This document shows, one piece after another, positions 8,972 to 42,470 of a DNA stretch of 44,302 nucleotides (the first letter of the stretch is position 1; each line of letters opens with the position of its first letter). Location: contig CADBQN010000033.1 in assembly GCA_902796855.1 (NCBI GenBank), forward strand, positions 1 to 44,302. The letters run 5' to 3'. The notes below the pieces were generated by a model. That model saw only the letters and a program-made list of their open reading frames with translations. It was not told the DNA's origin and did no database searches. This DNA is from an uncultured Bacillota bacterium. Its GTDB lineage: Bacteria > Bacillota > Dehalobacteriia > UBA7702. A program made the translations under genes and the position numbers.

Positions 8972-9092
8972 TCTCAGATCTCTTCCATCCAGACTTTACT
9001 GTCGGCTCCGGATTTTCACCGGATCAGCCTTTCGGCTCGCGGGCTTTTACCGCCGGTACGGAATCGCACCGTCCCCGAAGATCTTTCTCTGG
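8972..9092 (-). promoter_or_regulatory. FMN riboswitch (RFN element)
   Basis: The minus strand carries the conserved RFN blocks in order: AGATCTTCGGGG, GATTCCGTACCGGCGGT, AGCCCGCGAGCC, GCTGATCCGGTG, CCGGAGCCGACAGT and AGTCTGGATGGAAGAGATCT. The two ends pair to form helix P1. The element binds FMN and lowers expression of the rib operon when flavin is plentiful. A small CTGAG/CTCAG helix between aptamer and terminator could be part of the switching region. Confidence 0.97.
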
Positions 9093-10670: not shown

Positions 10671-12677
10671 TCATTCACCGCCGGAATCGGATTCCCTTTC
10701 ACCGGCGTCGATGGGATTATCGGTGCTGCCGCCGGAATTACCGCCGCTGTTGCCGCCGGAATTACCGCCGCTGTTGCCGCCGGAATTACCGCCGCTGTTG
10801 CCGCCGGAATTGCCGCCGCTGTTGCCGCCGGAATTACCGCCGCTGTTGCCGCCGGAATTACCGCCGCTGTTGTTGTCGGTATTGGAATTATCATTGTTAT
10901 TGTTCTGTGTCCCGGGATCTCTGCCTTTGGACACTTTGATTTTGATGACCGTGTCTTTATCGACTTTTTCGCCGGAGCTGTAATTCTGATAAATGACATA
11001 CCCTTCGGCGTAGCTGCTGCTGTATTCATAAGAAGTGATGGTATACTTCAGATTCGCTTCCGTCAGCCGTTCGACGGCGTCATCCTTGGTCATGCCAACC
11101 AGATTCGGAACGGCGATCTGATCCTGACCGGTGCTGACGACGATCGTGACGGTCTTCCCTTTTTCCAGCTTCTGACCGCCGGCCGGGGTCTGACGGATGA
11201 CTTTGCCTTTTTCAACATCATCGGAGGCTTCTTCCTTCACCTCCACCTTGAAACCGGCGTTCTGCAGCATGGTGGACGCCGCGTCTTCTTTTTTATCCGT
11301 CACATCGGGGACCTCAATGGCTTCGAAGCCGATGGAAACGGTGATGGTGATCTTCTTGTTCTGTCTGATTTTTGTGCCGGGCTCAATGCTCTGGTCGCAG
11401 ACGTAGCCTTCGTCGTACTCCGCGTTTTCTTCTTCCACAATGGAGTATTTAAGGCCGAGGCCTTCCAGTTCGTTGACCGCCTGATCTTCGGTGAGACCGA
11501 TCAAACGGGGAACAACAACTTCCTCTCCGCCGGTCAGACCGCGCACCAGCGCGAAACCGCCGACGCCGAGCAGAACGACGGCCAGCGCCGCGATGACAAC
11601 GGCGGCAATCAGTTTTTTATTATCCTTCTTTTTCTTTCTCCGTCTTTTCGGCCGTTCTCTTCTGTAATCGTCCTCGTCGTCATCGTCGCGGTCATAGCGG
11701 GAGGATTCGTCCCGGCGCTGTCCGCGGCTTCTTTCGCTGCGGCGGGAACGGCGGCGTTCACTCACTTCTTCGTCGTCAAGGCCATTGTCGTTTTTCGCTC
11801 TCAGCGCGTTGTTCTTCGATTTCGACGTCATCTGGATCGGCGTGAGGATCACGTCGTATTCATCGGCGGCGGTCTCGATATCGTCCATCATAATCTGGGC
11901 GCTGGCGTACCGTTCGTTCAGATCGACGGACATCGCCTTATCGACGATGCGCGCGACTTCATAGGGGATATCCTCATCGATTTCATCGATGGGCGTATAA
12001 CCGCCTTCCACATGCTGGAGGGCGATGGCGATGGGGCTGTCCCCGGTATAGGGGAGCTTGCCGGTGAGCATTTCATACAAAACGATGCCGGTGGAATAAA
12101 GGTCCACGCGTTCGTCCCCGGAACCCTTCTGCGCGATTTCCGGCGCGATGTAATAGACCGAGCCGAAAATGTTCTTTTCATAAGTGATCGTCGTGTCGGT
12201 GATGTTCATCGCCAGACCGAAGTCCATGATCTTCACCTGACCGGTCGGGGTGATCATAATGTTCTGAGGCTTGATATCACGATGGATCACACCGAAGGAG
12301 TGCGCGTGGCTCAACCCGGCTAAAATCTGGTGAACATAGTCAAGGGCGCGGTCAAGGGAGAGAGAACCTCGTTCGTTGATGACCTCTTTCAGCGTCTGAC
12401 CCTCAACGTATTCCATAATCAGATAGTGCTCGCCTTCTTCGCTGCAGCCGACGTCATAAACACTGACAATGTTTGGATGGGACAGCGCCGCGATGGCCTG
12501 CGCTTCCTTGTTAAAGCGCATGACAAATTTCTGATTTGTCGTAAATTGTTCCTGTAAGATTTTGACAGTAACTTCACGGTTCAATTTATTGTCAATCGCC
12601 TTGTAAACAACGGCCGTACCGCCGCTGCCCAATTTTGAAACGATCTCATAGCGATCCATAAAGTTTTTACCGATCAT
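10671..12677 (-). CDS. prkC: PASTA-domain serine/threonine protein kinase with (NSGG)12 tail
   Basis: About 668 residues from the ATG chosen behind GGGGTG. The kinase domain (about 8-265) has LGSGGTAVVYKA, catalytic VIHRDIKPQNIMI, MDFGLAM and YIAPEIAQ. A long juxtamembrane stretch, first acidic then Arg/Lys-rich, leads to one membrane helix (AAVVIAALAVVLLGVGGFAL) and three extracellular PASTA domains opening VVPRLIGLT, EVPDVTD and AVPNLVGMT. Such kinases sense cell-wall fragments and control growth, wall synthesis and dormancy. The C-terminus is unusual: after the third PASTA come Asn-rich residues and twelve exact NSGG repeats. The cognate phosphatase gene lies just upstream, with its stop inside the kinase 5' region. 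Confidence 0.96.
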   Translation of the reverse strand: MIGKNFMDRYEIVSKLGSGGTAVVYKAIDNKLNREVTVKILQEQFTTNQKFVMRFNKEAQAIAALSHPNIVSVYDVGCSEEGEHYLIMEYVEGQTLKEVINERGSLSLDRALDYVHQILAGLSHAHSFGVIHRDIKPQNIMITPTGQVKIMDFGLAMNITDTTITYEKNIFGSVYYIAPEIAQKGSGDERVDLYSTGIVLYEMLTGKLPYTGDSPIAIALQHVEGGYTPIDEIDEDIPYEVARIVDKAMSVDLNERYASAQIMMDDIETAADEYDVILTPIQMTSKSKNNALRAKNDNGLDDEEVSERRRSRRSERSRGQRRDESSRYDRDDDDEDDYRRERPKRRRKKKKDNKKLIAAVVIAALAVVLLGVGGFALVRGLTGGEEVVVPRLIGLTEDQAVNELEGLGLKYSIVEEENAEYDEGYVCDQSIEPGTKIRQNKKITITVSIGFEAIEVPDVTDKKEDAASTMLQNAGFKVEVKEEASDDVEKGKVIRQTPAGGQKLEKGKTVTIVVSTGQDQIAVPNLVGMTKDDAVERLTEANLKYTITSYEYSSSYAEGYVIYQNYSSGEKVDKDTVIKIKVSKGRDPGTQNNNNDNSNTDNNSGGNSGGNSGGNSGGNSGGNSGGNSGGNSGGNSGGNSGGNSGGNSGGSTDNPIDAGERESDSGGE
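10729..10872 (-). repeat. Tandem repeat, 12 units of 12 bases, encoding (NSGG)12
   Basis: Twelve consecutive 12-base units alternate two codon versions (ccgccggaatta and ccgccgctgttg as read on plus), making a 24-base repeat present six times with one base difference (at 10812). The unit length keeps the kinase frame open whatever the copy number, so length variation between strains would be tolerated. Confidence 0.95.
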
Positions 12678-12690
12678 CATTTCACCCCGA

Positions 12691-13407
12691 TTACAGTTTT
12701 TTCGCGAGGATGGCCGTAATATTATCTTTGCCCCCGCGATCAAGAACTTTTTTTACCATAGTGTTCAACGCGTGTTCTAAATTATTGTTACCTTTGATAA
12801 TGGCGGCCATTCTCTTGTCGTCAAGATAGCCGGACATACCGTCGGTACAAAGCAAAAAGATATCGTTTTTTTGGGCGTCGCCGGAATAAAAATCGATTTC
12901 CGGCAGCGGCTTGCGCCCGATGACACGGGTCAGCATGTTGCGTCCGGGATGTTTGTGGGCTTCTTTTTTGCTGATCTGTCCCGATTTCAGCAGAGCGCCG
13001 ACCATGTTGTGATCTTCCGTCAGGCGGCGCAGTTTGCCGCCGCGGCAGAGATAGGCGCGGCTGTCACCGATATGCCCGATATAATACCGGTCTTCATGAA
13101 AGCAGAGCGTCGTCAGCGTCGTGCCCATTTCGCTGTAGAGCGGGTCTTTTTTTGCTTCCGCGACGATCTCGTCGTTGCAGATGGTGAAAAGATCCGTCAG
13201 GTCCCGCTGATACGTTTCTTCCGTTACGCCGATGTAGTGAGTCGCGAAAATCTTAACGGCAATCGCGCTGGCGACGCGGCCGCCGGCATAGCCGCCCATG
13301 CCGTCAGCCATGACCATCAGACCCTTTTTTTCATCATAATAACAGGAATCATCATTATAATCCCTGTCATTACCGATATCCGTAATGGATCTGATTACCA
13401 TCGTCAT
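12691..13407 (-). CDS. stp: PP2C-family serine/threonine phosphatase
   Basis: 238 residues, a compact bacterial PPM phosphatase. Metal-binding and catalytic motifs are present: MADGMGGYAGG, GDSRAYLCRGG, LTEDHNMV, CTDGMSGYL and KDNITAI. It removes phosphates placed by the adjacent PASTA kinase on shared substrates and on the kinase. I place the start at the ATG at 13407; an in-frame TTG at 13416 is also possible, and no ribosome binding site is strong. A gap of about 100 bases to rlmN holds a likely promoter, so phosphatase and kinase may also be transcribed apart from the upstream genes. Confidence 0.95.
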   Translation of the reverse strand: MTMVIRSITDIGNDRDYNDDSCYYDEKKGLMVMADGMGGYAGGRVASAIAVKIFATHYIGVTEETYQRDLTDLFTICNDEIVAEAKKDPLYSEMGTTLTTLCFHEDRYYIGHIGDSRAYLCRGGKLRRLTEDHNMVGALLKSGQISKKEAHKHPGRNMLTRVIGRKPLPEIDFYSGDAQKNDIFLLCTDGMSGYLDDKRMAAIIKGNNNLEHALNTMVKKVLDRGGKDNITAILAKKL

Positions 13408-20309: not shown

Positions 20310-20810
20310 TTAACTCAGGGAATATTCCGCCACAACCCCGTCGGAGAAATAGCGCTTCACGTCGATTAGGCGCTGATTTTTGGAACCGCGGAAAGGCAGT
20401 TCCAGGGTGCGCAGGGATTTTTCAAAGCGCCCGTCCACAAGGACATCGACAAAACGGAGAAGCTCCATGATTTCCCTGTCGTTCTTCTCAAGCAGCGCTT
20501 CAAAAACAAAACCGGTGTAGCACCACACGCTCATCCCGTTTTCCCGCGCTTTCCGCGCCAATTCCGCCAGGGGGAGCGGCTGAAAGAGCGGATCGCCGCC
20601 GCTGAAAGTCACGCCGTCCAGAAGTGGGTTTCCCTCTATTTCACGCCAGATATCTTCCGTATCCGTTTCAAAGCCGCCGTCAAAAGCGTGGGTCTGGGGA
20701 TTGTGGCACCCGTCGCAATGATGGGAGCATCCCTGTACATAGACGGCGTAGCGCAGTCCGGGGCCATCCACGATGGAATCATTGATCAGCGACGCGGCAC
20801 GGAGCTTCAT
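20310..20810 (-). CDS. nrdG: Anaerobic ribonucleotide reductase activating protein
   Basis: 166 residues. A radical-SAM activase that installs the glycyl radical on NrdD. The cluster ligands are Cys28, Cys32 and Cys35 in CSHHCDGC, followed by HNPQTHAFDGG and TFSGGDPLFQP. The ATG overlaps the nrdD stop by four bases (20807-20810), so both are made together as the complex needs. Confidence 0.96.
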   Translation of the reverse strand: MKLRAASLINDSIVDGPGLRYAVYVQGCSHHCDGCHNPQTHAFDGGFETDTEDIWREIEGNPLLDGVTFSGGDPLFQPLPLAELARKARENGMSVWCYTGFVFEALLEKNDREIMELLRFVDVLVDGRFEKSLRTLELPFRGSKNQRLIDVKRYFSDGVVAEYSLS

Positions 20811-23182
20811 TTATACTCATCCTCCGATGCGGAGCAGGAGCTCAGACTATGAATTACGCGGTCGTGCTCCTCGGCGCGCTTCGCGTTATTGAATCGGTTC
20901 AGCGTGCCGACGAGATAGCCGGTGATGCGGCGAATCCGCTCAAATTCCACGTTGTTCTCGCTCCTGCCGCAGTGGGGACAGGTATCGCCGATGATGCCGT
21001 TGTAGCCGCAGACCGGATCACGGTCAACGGGATGATTGATGGAGCCGTAGCCGATGCCCTGTTCCTTCATGCAGCGGACGATTTTCTCAAAGGCGTCGAG
21101 ATTCTGGGAGACGTCGCCGTCCATTTCCACATAAGAAATATGCCCTGCGTTGGTCAGCGCGTGATAAGGCGCTTCCAACTGAATTTTCTTAAAGGCGTTG
21201 ATATCGTAATAGACGGGAATATGGAAACTGTTCGTGTAGTAATCGCGGTCGGTCACGCCTTCAATAACGCCGAAGCGCTTTTTATCGAGACGCACAAAAC
21301 GACCGGAAAGCCCCTCGGCGGGCGTTGCCAGCAGCGTATAGTTCAGCCCTGTTTTCGCCGAGAGATCGTCGAGATACCCGCGCATGAAACCGATGATTTC
21401 CAGACCGAGGTTCTGAGCTTTCTCGCTTTCACCGTGATGGACGCCGATCAGCGCTTTCAGCGTCTCGGCCAGACCGATAAAACCGACGGAAAGGGTTCCG
21501 TGTTTCAGCACTTCGCCCACTTCGTCGTCCCAATCAAGGGTCTCGCTGTCGAGCCAGACCCCCTGCCCCATCAGGAAGGGGAAGTTCTTCACTTTCTTTT
21601 TGGACTGAATCGCGAAACGCTCGTTGAGCTGGCCGACGGCCAAATCCAGCTTCCGTTTCAGTTCCTCAAAGAAAAAGGTGATGTCCCCTTTGGAACGAAT
21701 GGCGATGCGAGGCAGATTGATCGATGTAAACGAGAGATTCCCCCGCTGGGTCGAGATTTCCTTCGTGCGGTCGTGAACGTTGCCGATGACCCGGGTGCGG
21801 CAGCCCATATACGATATTTCCGTTTCGGGATGACCTTCTTTATAGTACTGCAGATTATAGGGCGCGTCCTGGAAGGAGAAATTCGGAAACAGGCGCTTGG
21901 CGCTGACACGGCAGGCCAGCTTAAAGAGATCGTAGTTGGGATCTTCCGGGTTATAATTGATTCCTTCCTTGATGCGGAAAATCTGAATCGGGAAAATCGC
22001 CGTTTCCCCCTGGCCGAGACCGGCTTCGGTGGCGAGGAGCAAATTGCGCATGACCATACGCCCTTCCGGCGACGTATCCGTTCCGTAATTGATGGAGGAG
22101 AACGGTGTCTGGGCGCCGGCTCTGGAATGCATCGTGTTCAGGTTATGAACAAAGGCTTCCATGGCCTGATAAGTGATGTGATCCACTTCTTCCCAGGATT
22201 TTCTCTTCGTAAACTCCATGATCCGCGCCGCCGTCTGTTCATCGGTGACGTGGTCTTTCAGATAAGCGAGAAAGCAGGCGTCGCGTTCCGCGTCTTCCAT
22301 TGCCGGGTCACCGCAGGCCAAAACGGCTTCCTTCGCCGCGTCTTCGGCGTTGTCCGTATCGCAGAGCAGTTCCATGGCGTTGGCCAGATTGCAGCGGAAC
22401 CGTTTGATATAGGTCTTGCGGACACCGGGGGCCATGCCGTAATCGAAATTGGAAATGCTCTGGCCGCCGTGCTGGTCGTTCTGATTGCTCTGAATCGCGA
22501 TGCAGGCCAAAGCGGAATAACTGGTGATGTCGTTGGGCTCCCTCAAAACACCGTGACCGGTGGAGAACCCGTTGTGGAACAGCTTTTGCAGGTCGATCTG
22601 GCAACAGGTCGTCGTCAGCGTGTAGAAATCCATATCGTGGATATGGATATCCCCTTCCTTGTGGGCCGTGGCGTATTCTTTGTCGATGACGAACATTTCA
22701 TAGAACTGCTTCGACCCTTCGGAGCCGTATTTCAGCATGGTGCCCATGGCGGTGTCGCCGTCGATGTTGGCGTTTTCCCGCTTGATATCGGAATCCTTTG
22801 CCGCCTTAAAGGTGATGTCCTGATAAATCTTCATCAGGTTCGTATTCATTTCACGGCGGCGGTTGCGCTCGGCGCGGTAGAGAATGTAGGCTTTCGCTGT
22901 CTGAACAAAGCCGTTGGTCATCAGAACATCTTCCACGACATCCTGAATTTCCTCAACGGCGGGTTTGGAATTGCCGGCTTCCTCCAAATCGTGAACGACT
23001 TCCTTCGTCAGTTCTTTCGCGGTTTCTTCCCCTTTTGTGCTCCCGGACGCGACAAAGGCCTTGACGATCGCCTGGGTGATTTTATCGTCATCAAAAGGAA
23101 CTTCCCGCTGATCGCGTTTGATGATGGTTTTAATCATTTTCTTTTTTTCCGCCCGGTTGACTTTACAGCCATACACAGGCAT
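20807..23182 (-). CDS. nrdD: Anaerobic (class III) ribonucleoside-triphosphate reductase
   Basis: 791 residues from 23182. It reduces ribonucleotides for DNA synthesis without oxygen. An N-terminal ATP-cone (KRDQREVPFDDDKITQAIVKAF, then VEDVLMTNGF) controls activity, and the barrel follows. The C-terminus has NAGHISYVEMDGD, a cysteine-containing zinc region (PVCGYNG then CPHCGR) and the glycyl-radical loop RRITGYLVGTLNRFN. Only three Cys are visible in the zinc region. The first ATG has a well-placed AGGAG; an internal ATG 15 codons later (23137) is nearer the usual family start but lacks a good site, so I kept 23182. Presence of this enzyme fits strict or facultative anaerobic life. Confidence 0.96.
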   Translation of the reverse strand: MPVYGCKVNRAEKKKMIKTIIKRDQREVPFDDDKITQAIVKAFVASGSTKGEETAKELTKEVVHDLEEAGNSKPAVEEIQDVVEDVLMTNGFVQTAKAYILYRAERNRRREMNTNLMKIYQDITFKAAKDSDIKRENANIDGDTAMGTMLKYGSEGSKQFYEMFVIDKEYATAHKEGDIHIHDMDFYTLTTTCCQIDLQKLFHNGFSTGHGVLREPNDITSYSALACIAIQSNQNDQHGGQSISNFDYGMAPGVRKTYIKRFRCNLANAMELLCDTDNAEDAAKEAVLACGDPAMEDAERDACFLAYLKDHVTDEQTAARIMEFTKRKSWEEVDHITYQAMEAFVHNLNTMHSRAGAQTPFSSINYGTDTSPEGRMVMRNLLLATEAGLGQGETAIFPIQIFRIKEGINYNPEDPNYDLFKLACRVSAKRLFPNFSFQDAPYNLQYYKEGHPETEISYMGCRTRVIGNVHDRTKEISTQRGNLSFTSINLPRIAIRSKGDITFFFEELKRKLDLAVGQLNERFAIQSKKKVKNFPFLMGQGVWLDSETLDWDDEVGEVLKHGTLSVGFIGLAETLKALIGVHHGESEKAQNLGLEIIGFMRGYLDDLSAKTGLNYTLLATPAEGLSGRFVRLDKKRFGVIEGVTDRDYYTNSFHIPVYYDINAFKKIQLEAPYHALTNAGHISYVEMDGDVSQNLDAFEKIVRCMKEQGIGYGSINHPVDRDPVCGYNGIIGDTCPHCGRSENNVEFERIRRITGYLVGTLNRFNNAKRAEEHDRVIHSLSSCSASEDEYK

Positions 23183-23208
23183 TTTGCTCCTATTTTTTCT
23201 ATATTACT

Positions 23209-23236
23209 ATTATATCATGTCTTAAAAAAAAGTAAA
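23209..23236 (-). promoter_or_regulatory. Promoter of nrdDG
   Basis: On the minus strand, TTTACT (23236-23231) and TATAAT (23214-23209) have a 16-base spacer, about 27 bases before the nrdD start. Two small GC-rich hairpins (GCGAA/TTCGC and CGCAG/CTGCG) lie upstream. Confidence 0.65.
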
Positions 23237-23344
23237 GCGCGGCCGCGAAGCGCCCGTTTCGCAGACCTGCGGATTCAAAAATGAAACGTAAAAATTTTTT
23301 ATCATTTTCTTTTTCGTTTTATGTTGTTTTTTTGTCCTCCGCTC

Positions 23345-23376
23345 AAAAAGAAAACCGGAACATGTCATTGTTCCGG
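23345..23376 (-). terminator. Intrinsic terminator overlapping the DUF896 stop codon
   Basis: CCGGAACA and TGTTCCGG (23369-23376 with 23355-23362) form an 8-bp stem whose six-base loop contains part of the TGA stop of the preceding gene (23367-23365); TTTTCTTTTT follows on the minus strand. It ends the dnaD-dnaI-nitrilase-DUF896 transcript before the nrdD promoter. Confidence 0.88.
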
Positions 23377-23709
23377 AATTTCTTCCTGTTTGCTGTAATC
23401 GTCATGCTCATGCTCATGATCGTGATCGTGATAGCCGCAGCAACAGTGACCGTCATGATGGTGATGGTGGTGATGGTGGTGATGTTCGTGATGATGGATC
23501 TCTGAGGGATCTCTCTTTTTCAGCGGCGTCAGCGTGCCGTCAGCTTCCTGAATCAAAACGCTTTCCAGCGTCGCCCGGGTACCGGCGCGAAAGGCCTCGA
23601 TGTATTCCTGACGCAGAACCGTGCGTTCCGCCAGCTCCTCATCGGTCAGACCAACAGTTTTCGCCTTGCGGGCCAGTTCGTTGATGCGGTCGATTTTTGC
23701 TTTTTCCAT
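23365..23709 (-). CDS. DUF896 (YnzC-like) protein with His/Cys-rich C-terminal tail
   Basis: 114 residues. The first 68 or so match the DUF896/YnzC family: MEKAKIDRINELARKAKTVG, LTDEELAERTVLRQEYIEAF and RATLESV, a small helical-hairpin protein of Bacillota linked in Bacillus to the SOS-associated YneA-YneB-YnzC operon. The family is normally near 75-80 residues. Here a tail of about 35 residues (72-104) adds 19 His and three consecutive Cys (89-91), mixed with Asp and Glu. Such tails bind nickel, zinc or cobalt in other proteins such as SlyD and HypB. Metal storage or sensing is an inference. It is the last gene of its unit. Confidence 0.85.
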   Translation of the reverse strand: MEKAKIDRINELARKAKTVGLTDEELAERTVLRQEYIEAFRAGTRATLESVLIQEADGTLTPLKKRDPSEIHHHEHHHHHHHHHHDGHCCCGYHDHDHEHEHDDYSKQEEIPEQ

Positions 23710-23724: not shown

Positions 23725-24525
23725 TTAAAATAAGTTATTATCGATTTCGTCCAGGATGTTCCGCCGGTCCTGGAACACCGGGATCATTTTGCGGATGTAA
23801 TGATCCGATTCCACATAGATTTCACAGCAGGAAAGCCCTTCCTCCTCGCCGCAGGCCGTCAGGACCGTTCCGTCCGGGGAAATGATCATCGAGCTGCCGC
23901 CGTAGGCGAGATTGTCCTTTCCGCAGCGGTTGACACCGATCACATAGACCTGGTTTTCAATGGCCCTCGCTTTGAGAAGCGACGTATAGTGATCGTTTCT
24001 GGCGGCGGGCCACTGGGCGGGAACGAAAATCACCGAGGCGTCCCGCAAAACGAGATTGCGGCAAAAAGCCGGAAAGCGCAGGTCATAGCAAAGCATCAGC
24101 CCAAAGGTGAGATCCCCCACCCGGGTCAGTCCCCATTCGTCCCCGGCCTTAAAATATGAAGACTCGTGGATCGCGTGGGAAAAGAGGTGCACCTTGCGGT
24201 ATTTATCAATCAGTTCCCCTTCTTTGCTGATGACGGGCATCGTGTTGTAGAACCCATCGTCGCGCCGTTCGGCGATGCTTCCGCCGATGATATTCACCTG
24301 ATGCTTTTTCGCGAGGTACTTTAAAAAGCGGACGGAGTCTCCTTTCAGCGTTTCCGCCTTTTCATCCAGATGTTCCAAATCATAGCCGATGTTCCACAGT
24401 TCGGGGAGAACGAGAAAATCGCACTGATCCGGCAGCTTTTCCGCCAGCCGCTGCAATGAGGCCTTGTTTTTCTCCCGTTCGCCGAAGGCAACATCCATCT
24501 GAGCCAAAGCGATATTCAGACGCAT
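23725..24525 (-). CDS. Nitrilase-superfamily carbon-nitrogen hydrolase
   Basis: 266 residues. The catalytic triad is visible as Glu42 (VLPELWN), Lys111 (DKYRKVHLF) and Cys146 (LMLCYDLRFP). The length and FNTMPVIS-like strand pattern fit the branch containing omega-amidase and YafV/MtnU-like enzymes, which hydrolyse short amides such as 2-oxoglutaramate or 2-oxosuccinamate. The exact substrate is not certain. It starts three bases after the dnaI-like stop and is probably cotranscribed with the DnaD/DnaI pair, with no obvious functional link. Confidence 0.9.
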   Translation of the reverse strand: MRLNIALAQMDVAFGEREKNKASLQRLAEKLPDQCDFLVLPELWNIGYDLEHLDEKAETLKGDSVRFLKYLAKKHQVNIIGGSIAERRDDGFYNTMPVISKEGELIDKYRKVHLFSHAIHESSYFKAGDEWGLTRVGDLTFGLMLCYDLRFPAFCRNLVLRDASVIFVPAQWPAARNDHYTSLLKARAIENQVYVIGVNRCGKDNLAYGGSSMIISPDGTVLTACGEEEGLSCCEIYVESDHYIRKMIPVFQDRRNILDEIDNNLF

Positions 24526-41211: not shown

Positions 41212-42003
41212 GTTTTTGATTTCCGCGATTCGGCGCCGATGATCGAAAGCGATGACGGAAGCGGCCACGGCCACATTCAGCGATTCGACACCGTTTTCCA
41301 TCGGAATCATCAGCGAGGAAAAGGAACGCTCCCGCCAGCGCGCGCTGATTCCGTTTCCCTCGTTGCCGAAAACGACGGCGGTTTTGCCGCTCACCGGCAC
41401 TTCATGATAGCAAACGGGCTCCTCCATGCCGGCGATATAAACGTCCACGCCGTTTTCATCCAAAAAAGAGAGGATCGCTTCAAAGGAAAGATCGGTAAAA
41501 ACCGGGACCCTGGCCACCGTCCCCATCGTTGCCCGAATGACTTTGGGGTTGTACAGATCGACGGACCCTTTTTCCAGAAGGACGGCGCCGACGCCGGCGG
41601 CGGCGGCGGAACGGATGACGGTGCCCAAATTGCCGGGGTCACGGATCTCATTGAGAATCAAAATCAGTTCCCCGACACCGGGCCGATAGCTCGCAAGCTC
41701 CGGACAGAGGCAGGGAAAAGCGGCGGCGATGCCCTGCCCGTTCTGCGTATCGCTGACGGAAGAAAAAGCACTCCGCGAAACGGACAGAACGCGGTCGGAA
41801 ACGGCGGCGGCCTTTTCCAAAAAGGCGATATCTTTAAAATCTTCCGCGTAAAGGAGGAAGTGCGGGCTGAGACCGGCGCCGATCAAATCGTCGATGAGGC
41901 GCTTCCCCTCGGCGGGGAAAAGGCCGTATTCCTCCCGATATTTCTTATGACCCAGCTCCCGGAAAAGGCGGAGAAAGCGGTTGTCCTTTGAGGTAATCAG
42001 CAT
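41203..42003 (-). CDS. TrmH/SpoU family RNA 2'-O-methyltransferase
   Basis: 266 residues from the ATG at 42003, which has AGGAA well placed; an upstream in-frame start at 42033 lies within the Fur coding region. The N-terminal SpoU_sub_bind part (FRELGHKKYREEYGLFPAEG) is followed by the knotted SPOUT fold with all three motifs: ILNEIRDPGNLGTVIRSAAA, VFGNEGNGIS and IPMENGVESLNVAVAASV. It methylates a ribose in rRNA or tRNA; the site is unknown. Its start overlaps the end of the Fur gene by seven bases, and its last codons carry the pheS -35 box. Confidence 0.92.
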   Translation of the reverse strand: MLITSKDNRFLRLFRELGHKKYREEYGLFPAEGKRLIDDLIGAGLSPHFLLYAEDFKDIAFLEKAAAVSDRVLSVSRSAFSSVSDTQNGQGIAAAFPCLCPELASYRPGVGELILILNEIRDPGNLGTVIRSAAAAGVGAVLLEKGSVDLYNPKVIRATMGTVARVPVFTDLSFEAILSFLDENGVDVYIAGMEEPVCYHEVPVSGKTAVVFGNEGNGISARWRERSFSSLMIPMENGVESLNVAVAASVIAFDHRRRIAEIKNLK

Positions 42004-42422
42004 GACGGTTCCTCCCCTTCCTTTTCGGCGCATTCCGCGCAGATTCCGTAAAGAACGGTCTTCATGGAGTTGACCTTAAAACCGTGATCGGCCAGAATGT
42101 GATCCTCAACGGAATCCAGCAGATGACATTGGAGATGGATCAGCTTGCCGCAGCGTTCGCATTTCAGATGATAATGTTCCTCGCAGCGGCCGCTTTCCTC
42201 CCCGGCGTACTGAAAACAGGCGCCGGCCTTGCCGTCTAAAATAAATTTGCGGACCACACCGTCTTTCTCCATTTTTTCCAGCTGCCGATAAATCGTCGCG
42301 ATGCCGACGGAAGAACCGTTTTTCGCCAAAGCGTCACGAATCGTCGTCACGGTAACGTGGCGATGGCCGAACGATTTTAAACAAGCCAGGATCTCCCGGC
42401 TCTGCTTTGTGTTGTAAGTCAT
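41997..42422 (-). CDS. Fur family metal or peroxide regulator
   Basis: 141 residues from the ATG at 42422, preceded by AGAGGTG. The winged helix includes HVTVTTIRDAL and VGIATIYRQLEKMEKDGVV; the dimerisation domain has HYHLKCERCGKLIHLQC and a second cysteine pair in GICAECAEK, the structural zinc site. The sensing branch (Fur, Zur or PerR) is not decidable here. The protein keeps the His cluster EEHYH. Divergent promoters separate it from the sodium symporter, so it could regulate both, though no operator was identified. Confidence 0.93.
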   Translation of the reverse strand: MTYNTKQSREILACLKSFGHRHVTVTTIRDALAKNGSSVGIATIYRQLEKMEKDGVVRKFILDGKAGACFQYAGEESGRCEEHYHLKCERCGKLIHLQCHLLDSVEDHILADHGFKVNSMKTVLYGICAECAEKEGEEPSC

Positions 42423-42470
42423 GGCGGCACCTCTCTTCCGTTCCGTCGTCATCACCCTGAGGTCTTTTCC

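Follow-up and report, generated by a model that had tools for sequence, protein, structure and literature searches.

A DUF896 protein with a His/Cys-rich, probably metal-binding C-terminal tail, and the recurrence of such tails among its relatives in the Bacillota

The window, by which is meant the whole 44,302-nucleotide stretch of DNA analysed here (contig CADBQN010000033.1, from an uncultured Bacillota bacterium), encodes a protein that joins a DUF896 core to a C-terminal tail rich in His and Cys. The features of the gene and of its surroundings are as follows:

20807..23182, reverse strand: nrdD (class III ribonucleotide reductase), downstream of the DUF896 gene (Pfam, NCBIfam)
23345..23376, reverse strand: hairpin resembling an intrinsic terminator (23355-23376) with a T-rich run (fold of 61 bases, -23.5 kcal/mol, z -4.68)
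23365..23709, reverse strand: DUF896 gene, 114 amino acids (ORF list; ATG start, GGAG upstream)
23404..23496, reverse strand: His/Cys tail, residues 72-102, with 19 His and Cys 89-91, predicted to be disordered (positions, pLDDT, codons)
23437..23445, reverse strand: codons of the Cys triplet, TGT TGC TGC, kept in a second genome of the genus (G001)
23524..23709, reverse strand: DUF896 core, residues 1-62 (AlphaFold2 model, with the Pfam match at 5-64)
23725..24525, reverse strand: CN_hydrolase gene, directly upstream of the DUF896 gene and 15 bases from it (ORF list, Pfam)
41997..42455, reverse strand: Fur-family regulator, about 18 kb from the DUF896 gene (49% identity to the regulator that heads an operon in G003, a genome of a sister genus)

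Past the DUF896 gene the order is nrdD-nrdG-priA (priA being named from its sequence), and in all three members of the window's family that were found with DUF896, nrdD follows within 2 kb and is read in the same direction. The terminator-like hairpin overlaps the end of the DUF896 gene: its loop holds the stop codon and its 5' arm the codons of the last residues. Inspected by eye, the same site in G001 keeps CCG GAA CAA, continues with bases that lack the arm repeat, and has another gene directly after it. Elsewhere in the window an FMN riboswitch (8973-9087, reverse strand) stands ahead of a gene set resembling one for riboflavin synthesis (named by eye), a protein that by eye resembles serine/threonine kinases (10671-12743, reverse strand) carries a long GGNS repeat at its C-terminus, and an 811-codon open frame antisense to nrdD (20849-23284, forward strand) is most likely an artefact of codon bias.

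The architecture proposed in the initial annotation, a DUF896 core and then a His/Cys-rich tail, is confirmed. PF05979 (DUF896) matches residues 5-64 over model positions 2-62 of 64, scoring 75 bits where the cut-off is 24.2 (NCBIfam PRK02539 reaches 64.7 bits, short of its own cut-off of 112). The protein's 19 His all fall within residues 72-102, and its Cys are residues 89, 90 and 91. An AlphaFold2 model, built with three homologues as input, gives the core two helices (3-18 and 23-49) and a short beta hairpin (52-62), with a mean pLDDT of 79-96 over the first seven ten-residue blocks; pLDDT is low from about residue 71 and under 50 at 79-85 and 87-113, as is expected for a tail that is predicted to be disordered.

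How widely such tails occur was followed through the relatives. DUF896 was found in 10 of 43 genomes of the window's class, in 88 of 299 and 117 of 398 genomes of two overlapping draws spread evenly over the phylum (not a random sample), and in 20 of the 37 genomes of one further class that was searched whole, all 20 in a single family. A first set of 99 proteins from 98 loci makes 100 with the window's own (97 different cores, near-identical rows being included), and a second set adds 32 proteins from 32 loci, for a total of 132; three relatives in named records, among the matches listed, were left out of this total, and all three are untailed. The start codons of relatives were picked by a simple score. 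A protein is counted as tailed, by a rule of our own, if at least two Cys and at least one His stand behind core position 50, so that L086, with its His-only end, is scored untailed.

The tail turns out to be common. DUF896 proteins had been described in the initial annotation as normally lacking it, which is wrong: 70 of the 132 are tailed (58 of the 100 in the first set with the window, 12 of the 32 in the second), and the comparison across homologues finds that tailed members occur in 32 of 53 families (29 of the 46 that the first set covers, and 3 of another 7 that only the second contains). The untailed 62 include relatives of tailed proteins (L142, L119); the absence of the tail from these 62, from the truncated L181 (see below) and from the relatives in named records indicates that the core works without it. 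Among the 58 tails of the first set, 54 contain CxC and 49 match C.CG?.{0,8}H. Several genomes hold more than one copy of the gene: L130 has two, tailed and about 1.9 kb apart, and G107, G393 and G429 have three each, untailed.

The median tailed protein has 26 residues behind the core, with 3 Cys and 4 His; the window's, with 19 His, ranks first of 100 in His content, ahead of that of G003 with 14. At least two Cys and two His stand in the last 30 residues of 54 of 99 DUF896 proteins, and the same criterion picks out 16 of 510 complete neighbouring ORFs of fewer than 300 amino acids (one of the 16 is a second DUF896 copy) and 8 of the 430 neighbours seen at more than one locus. Written as a DNA pattern, HHxHHxH has 8 matches in the window's 2.1 Mb genome, 5 of them inside the DUF896 gene; two of the other three lie in Arg/Pro-rich stretches with 81-82 codons between stops, the third is without an open stretch of at least 60, and the reversed pattern, run as a control, has 5 matches in that genome. 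The concentration of this pattern in the DUF896 gene and the controls with neighbouring ORFs together place the Cys/His tail beyond chance.

The initial annotation also suggested that the tail, being encoded by simple CAT/CAC runs, might vary in length by slippage, and took a lost or frameshifted tail in close species as the mark of slippage noise. When those close homologues are compared, the tails of G001 (same genus) and of G003 (same family) are both in frame. A third member of the genus (G002, an assembly of 360 contigs) is uninformative on tail loss, since DUF896 and the amidase gene beside it are both missing from the assembly. G001 keeps TGT TGC TGC, and its His arms differ from the window's in length and in codon use. 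In the 20-protein family of the class that was searched whole, nine members share C.D[DE]CC, eight share C..CGHDH, two are His-rich with one Cys and one (L181) stops before the tail; the three Cys columns of the first group are Cys in 9/9, with TGT/TGC exchange in each, and the two of the second are Cys in 8/8, without codon change. The suggestion of slippage holds in part: the His run does vary in length, and in this family all of its length differences are whole codons, but the CAT/CAC codons are mixed and the Cys part is conserved, so that slippage alone is insufficient. As far as these alignments reveal, the tail is kept by selection and not by slippage alone. On a tree of the cores the tailed state is clustered: it takes 16 changes, against a mean of 32.2 when shuffled and with 0 of 500 shuffles as low; the tree, of 51 columns, is poorly resolved, no more than 4 of the changes are forced by starred branches, and gain and loss are indistinguishable on it.

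One locus connects the tail with metal uptake. In G003 a tailed DUF896 gene is the last, overlapping gene of an operon whose products match, in order, PF01475 (the regulator), PF01297 (ZnuA), ABC_tran, PF00950 (ABC-3) and DUF896, each start overlapping the preceding stop; the DUF896 start overlaps the stop of the ABC-3 permease gene in ATGAATAA, and the sequence upstream of the regulator gene contains a perfect palindrome, ATGAAATTCAATTTCAT. By its Pfam matches the operon appears to be one for zinc-type uptake. All of its members score below cut-off with the curated zinc and manganese models of NCBIfam, so that its metal can be proposed only by inference, and it may take up manganese or iron. 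Of 130 loci searched by tblastn at E 1e-6, each spanning 3-10 kb and some truncated at the end of a contig, one shows DUF896 linked to an uptake operon. The sole DUF896 gene of the window's genome, like that of G001, is on a different contig from the znuB homologue and the homologous ABC genes; the window's own Fur-family regulator stands in a gene order other than that of G003, and a palindrome of the G003 (Fur) type was absent from the window when up to 3 mismatches were allowed. A literature search on the zinc operon found no paper.

DUF896 neighbourhoods vary from family to family and are no general guide. In one family (f58: L057, L059, L061, L065 and L066) a gene for a PF03773-type permease lies 0.6-1.7 kb from the tailed DUF896 gene in 5/5, assigned by Pfam in two of the five and by tblastn in the others, and counted once as one conserved neighbourhood. 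A single case (L050:2826-3974, reverse strand) involves a gene for cation efflux (PF01545), which shares bases with the beginning of an untailed DUF896 gene.

The existence of the tail, its architecture, its conservation, its distribution and its place in one operon are direct observations. Metal binding is the natural reading of the tail, and one tailed gene ends a zinc-type operon. The initial annotation went further, to a buffer or sensor of metal; of this, metal binding is supported as a reading, and for the role, which can only be inferred, buffering or donation is preferred to sensing. In the mechanism that we favour, a helical hairpin of the DUF896 (YnzC) type would bear a disordered C-terminal His/Cys tail able to coordinate several transition-metal ions; the folded core would dock on a partner while the tail holds exchangeable metal; and the protein, which looks to be cytosolic, would serve as a metal buffer and donor with zinc as its main cargo, its gene having joined a zinc-type uptake operon in the sister genus. 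The parts of this reading differ in strength. The tail very probably binds metal; zinc is somewhat favoured as the main metal; that the role is buffering or donation rather than sensing we put at about an even chance, and the whole, in which a hairpin of helices acts through its disordered, metal-chelating tail as a cytosolic zinc buffer or donor, is equally finely balanced. That tailed DUF896 proteins constitute a phylum-wide set of cytosolic zinc buffers or zinc-responsive adaptors, with metal as part of the role of DUF896 and carried furthest in the window's family (the most His-rich tail, the sister-genus operon), is offered tentatively and is rather doubtful; no such class was found described in the accessible portions of the literature searched. 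This is a known family with a testable function, and not a new kind of system.

In the strongest alternative the Cys/His motif would be a small zinc site, structural or redox in kind, by which an interaction or a dimer is fixed, and the window's long His run would be an elaboration that is tolerated. SecA carries a short C-terminal Cys/His motif, and many DUF896 tails are likewise short, with Cys and His packed closely at the end, e.g., CSCGDPNCKHSH. An exact C-terminal His occurs in 53 of 100 DUF896 proteins (40 of the 58 tailed and 13 of the 42 others) and in 21 of 430 recurring neighbours, and such a residue is possible as a metal ligand or as a recognition point. However, the spacing of Cys and His is inconstant between families, unlike that of a fixed site, and the long tails carry far more ligands than one site requires; a structural site is unlikely, if still the most credible of the alternatives.

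A less probable alternative would make the tail a store of nickel (or cobalt) that supplies NiFe hydrogenase and other metalloenzymes, in the manner of the SlyD, HypB and UreE tails. Its composition is close to that of the SlyD and UreE tails, as far as the portion of the source available describes them (PMC7055735), and HypA scores above cut-off in the window's genome, in G001 and in G003. Over the wider set, however, 26 of 50 genomes with a tailed protein have HypA above cut-off, as do 11 of 30 with an untailed one (p=0.25), and in family f5, which has long His/Cys tails, HypA has no match in 3/3 genomes (two of them 75-87% complete). These 37 of 80 genomes (80 of 95 having been searched) become 50 of 80 at a looser E of 0.001, tailed and untailed pooled. 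Co-occurrence of the tail with nickel enzymes was rejected as a candidate signal, the association with HypA being short of significance, and on this survey of gene content nickel, although it may be one of the ligands, does not explain the distribution of the tail. Finally, a functionless tail, be it slippage noise or a near-neutral extension, for which the imperfect CAT/CAC arrays (period 9, 85% matches), the variable length, the absence from 62 of 132 proteins and the 16 changes on the core tree could all be cited, is very improbable in face of conserved Cys (with synonymous exchange in one group), mixed His codons, a single truncation among 20 in the family studied in depth and recurrence in 32 of 53 families.

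To return to the preferred reading, of a core that carries exchangeable metal on its tail: DUF896 has had its structures solved, yet the family is filed under unknown function. A metal-ligand tail in about half of its proteins and one operon copy provide a hypothesis for the family that can be tested, namely that the hairpin buffers metal or acts under its control. In the accessible portions of the open-access literature no description of a tail on DUF896 was found (PMC3814617, PMC10845952, PMC4143570, PMC10533825). According to the excerpts available, no viable knock-out was obtained for the pneumococcal member spr1327 (PMC4143570), and a paper on gliotoxin as a cause of metal depletion (PMC10533825) marks the UPF0291 protein EF_1580 of Enterococcus faecalis 'Unique' in its proteome table, where it is one of many proteins. 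In Streptococcus mutans a protein of the DUF896 family appears in the interactome table of MecA (PMC10845952), which makes MecA a candidate partner of the core.

The known system closest to the window protein is YnzC of Bacillus subtilis (DUF896/UPF0291; PDB 2hep, 3bhp, 2jvd), which has the same core by sequence. Only YnzC structures share the DUF896 core in a sequence search of the PDB, other matches covering the region of the His stretch alone, and a search with a long DUF896 tail gave no match at E 10. With a score of 65.4 bits the entry 2hep matches residues 3-81 of the window protein; the end of this match reaches the last residues of the 2hep chain, which are probably a His expression tag, so that no tail would be shared. 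The helices predicted at 3-18 and 23-49 with high pLDDT are as expected for the hairpin of 2hep and 3bhp, the likeness to 2hep being one of sequence only. YnzC-like proteins end in ..VDPEGNDVTPEKL..LH without Cys (which we take to be the type of ending of B. subtilis YnzC itself), unlike the tailed DUF896 proteins.

The settings of the genes also differ. The ynzC gene of B. subtilis presumably belongs to an SOS operon beside lexA and a serine recombinase (yneB-like) gene, whereas the neighbours in the window are CN_hydrolase and nrdD. Nearby lexA was seen at nine of the first 98 loci, all of them untailed and most ending VDPEGNDVTPEKL..LH-like or in ..LKH, so that in this sample the branches with the lexA setting are others than those with the tail. 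A scan for LexA boxes in the 250 bases before each of 99 DUF896 genes gave 0 matches to a strict motif (0.66 expected) and 6 to a loose one (3.07 expected), no excess of boxes and hence no SOS signal in these 99 genes.

With the ZnuABC/Adc-type uptake operons that have a Fur-family regulator the likeness is one of context: the tailed DUF896 gene of G003 ends such an operon, unlike that of the window's genome, which stands outside one. For the tail itself the best comparison is with SlyD and UreE. Their cores (a peptidyl-prolyl isomerase and a urease chaperone) are unrelated to DUF896, and the window protein matches only DUF896-type models in Pfam and NCBIfam, with no core domain of SlyD, HypB or UreE. 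What they share with it, in the portion of the source available, is a C-terminal tail, disordered and with much His, Cys, Asp and Glu, carried on a folded core and variable between species (PMC7055735). SlyD and UreE tails of this composition bind metal (2.4 Ni or 3.3 Zn per protein for SlyD of Helicobacter pylori, according to the same portion of PMC7055735), which supports the metal-binding reading of the DUF896 tail.
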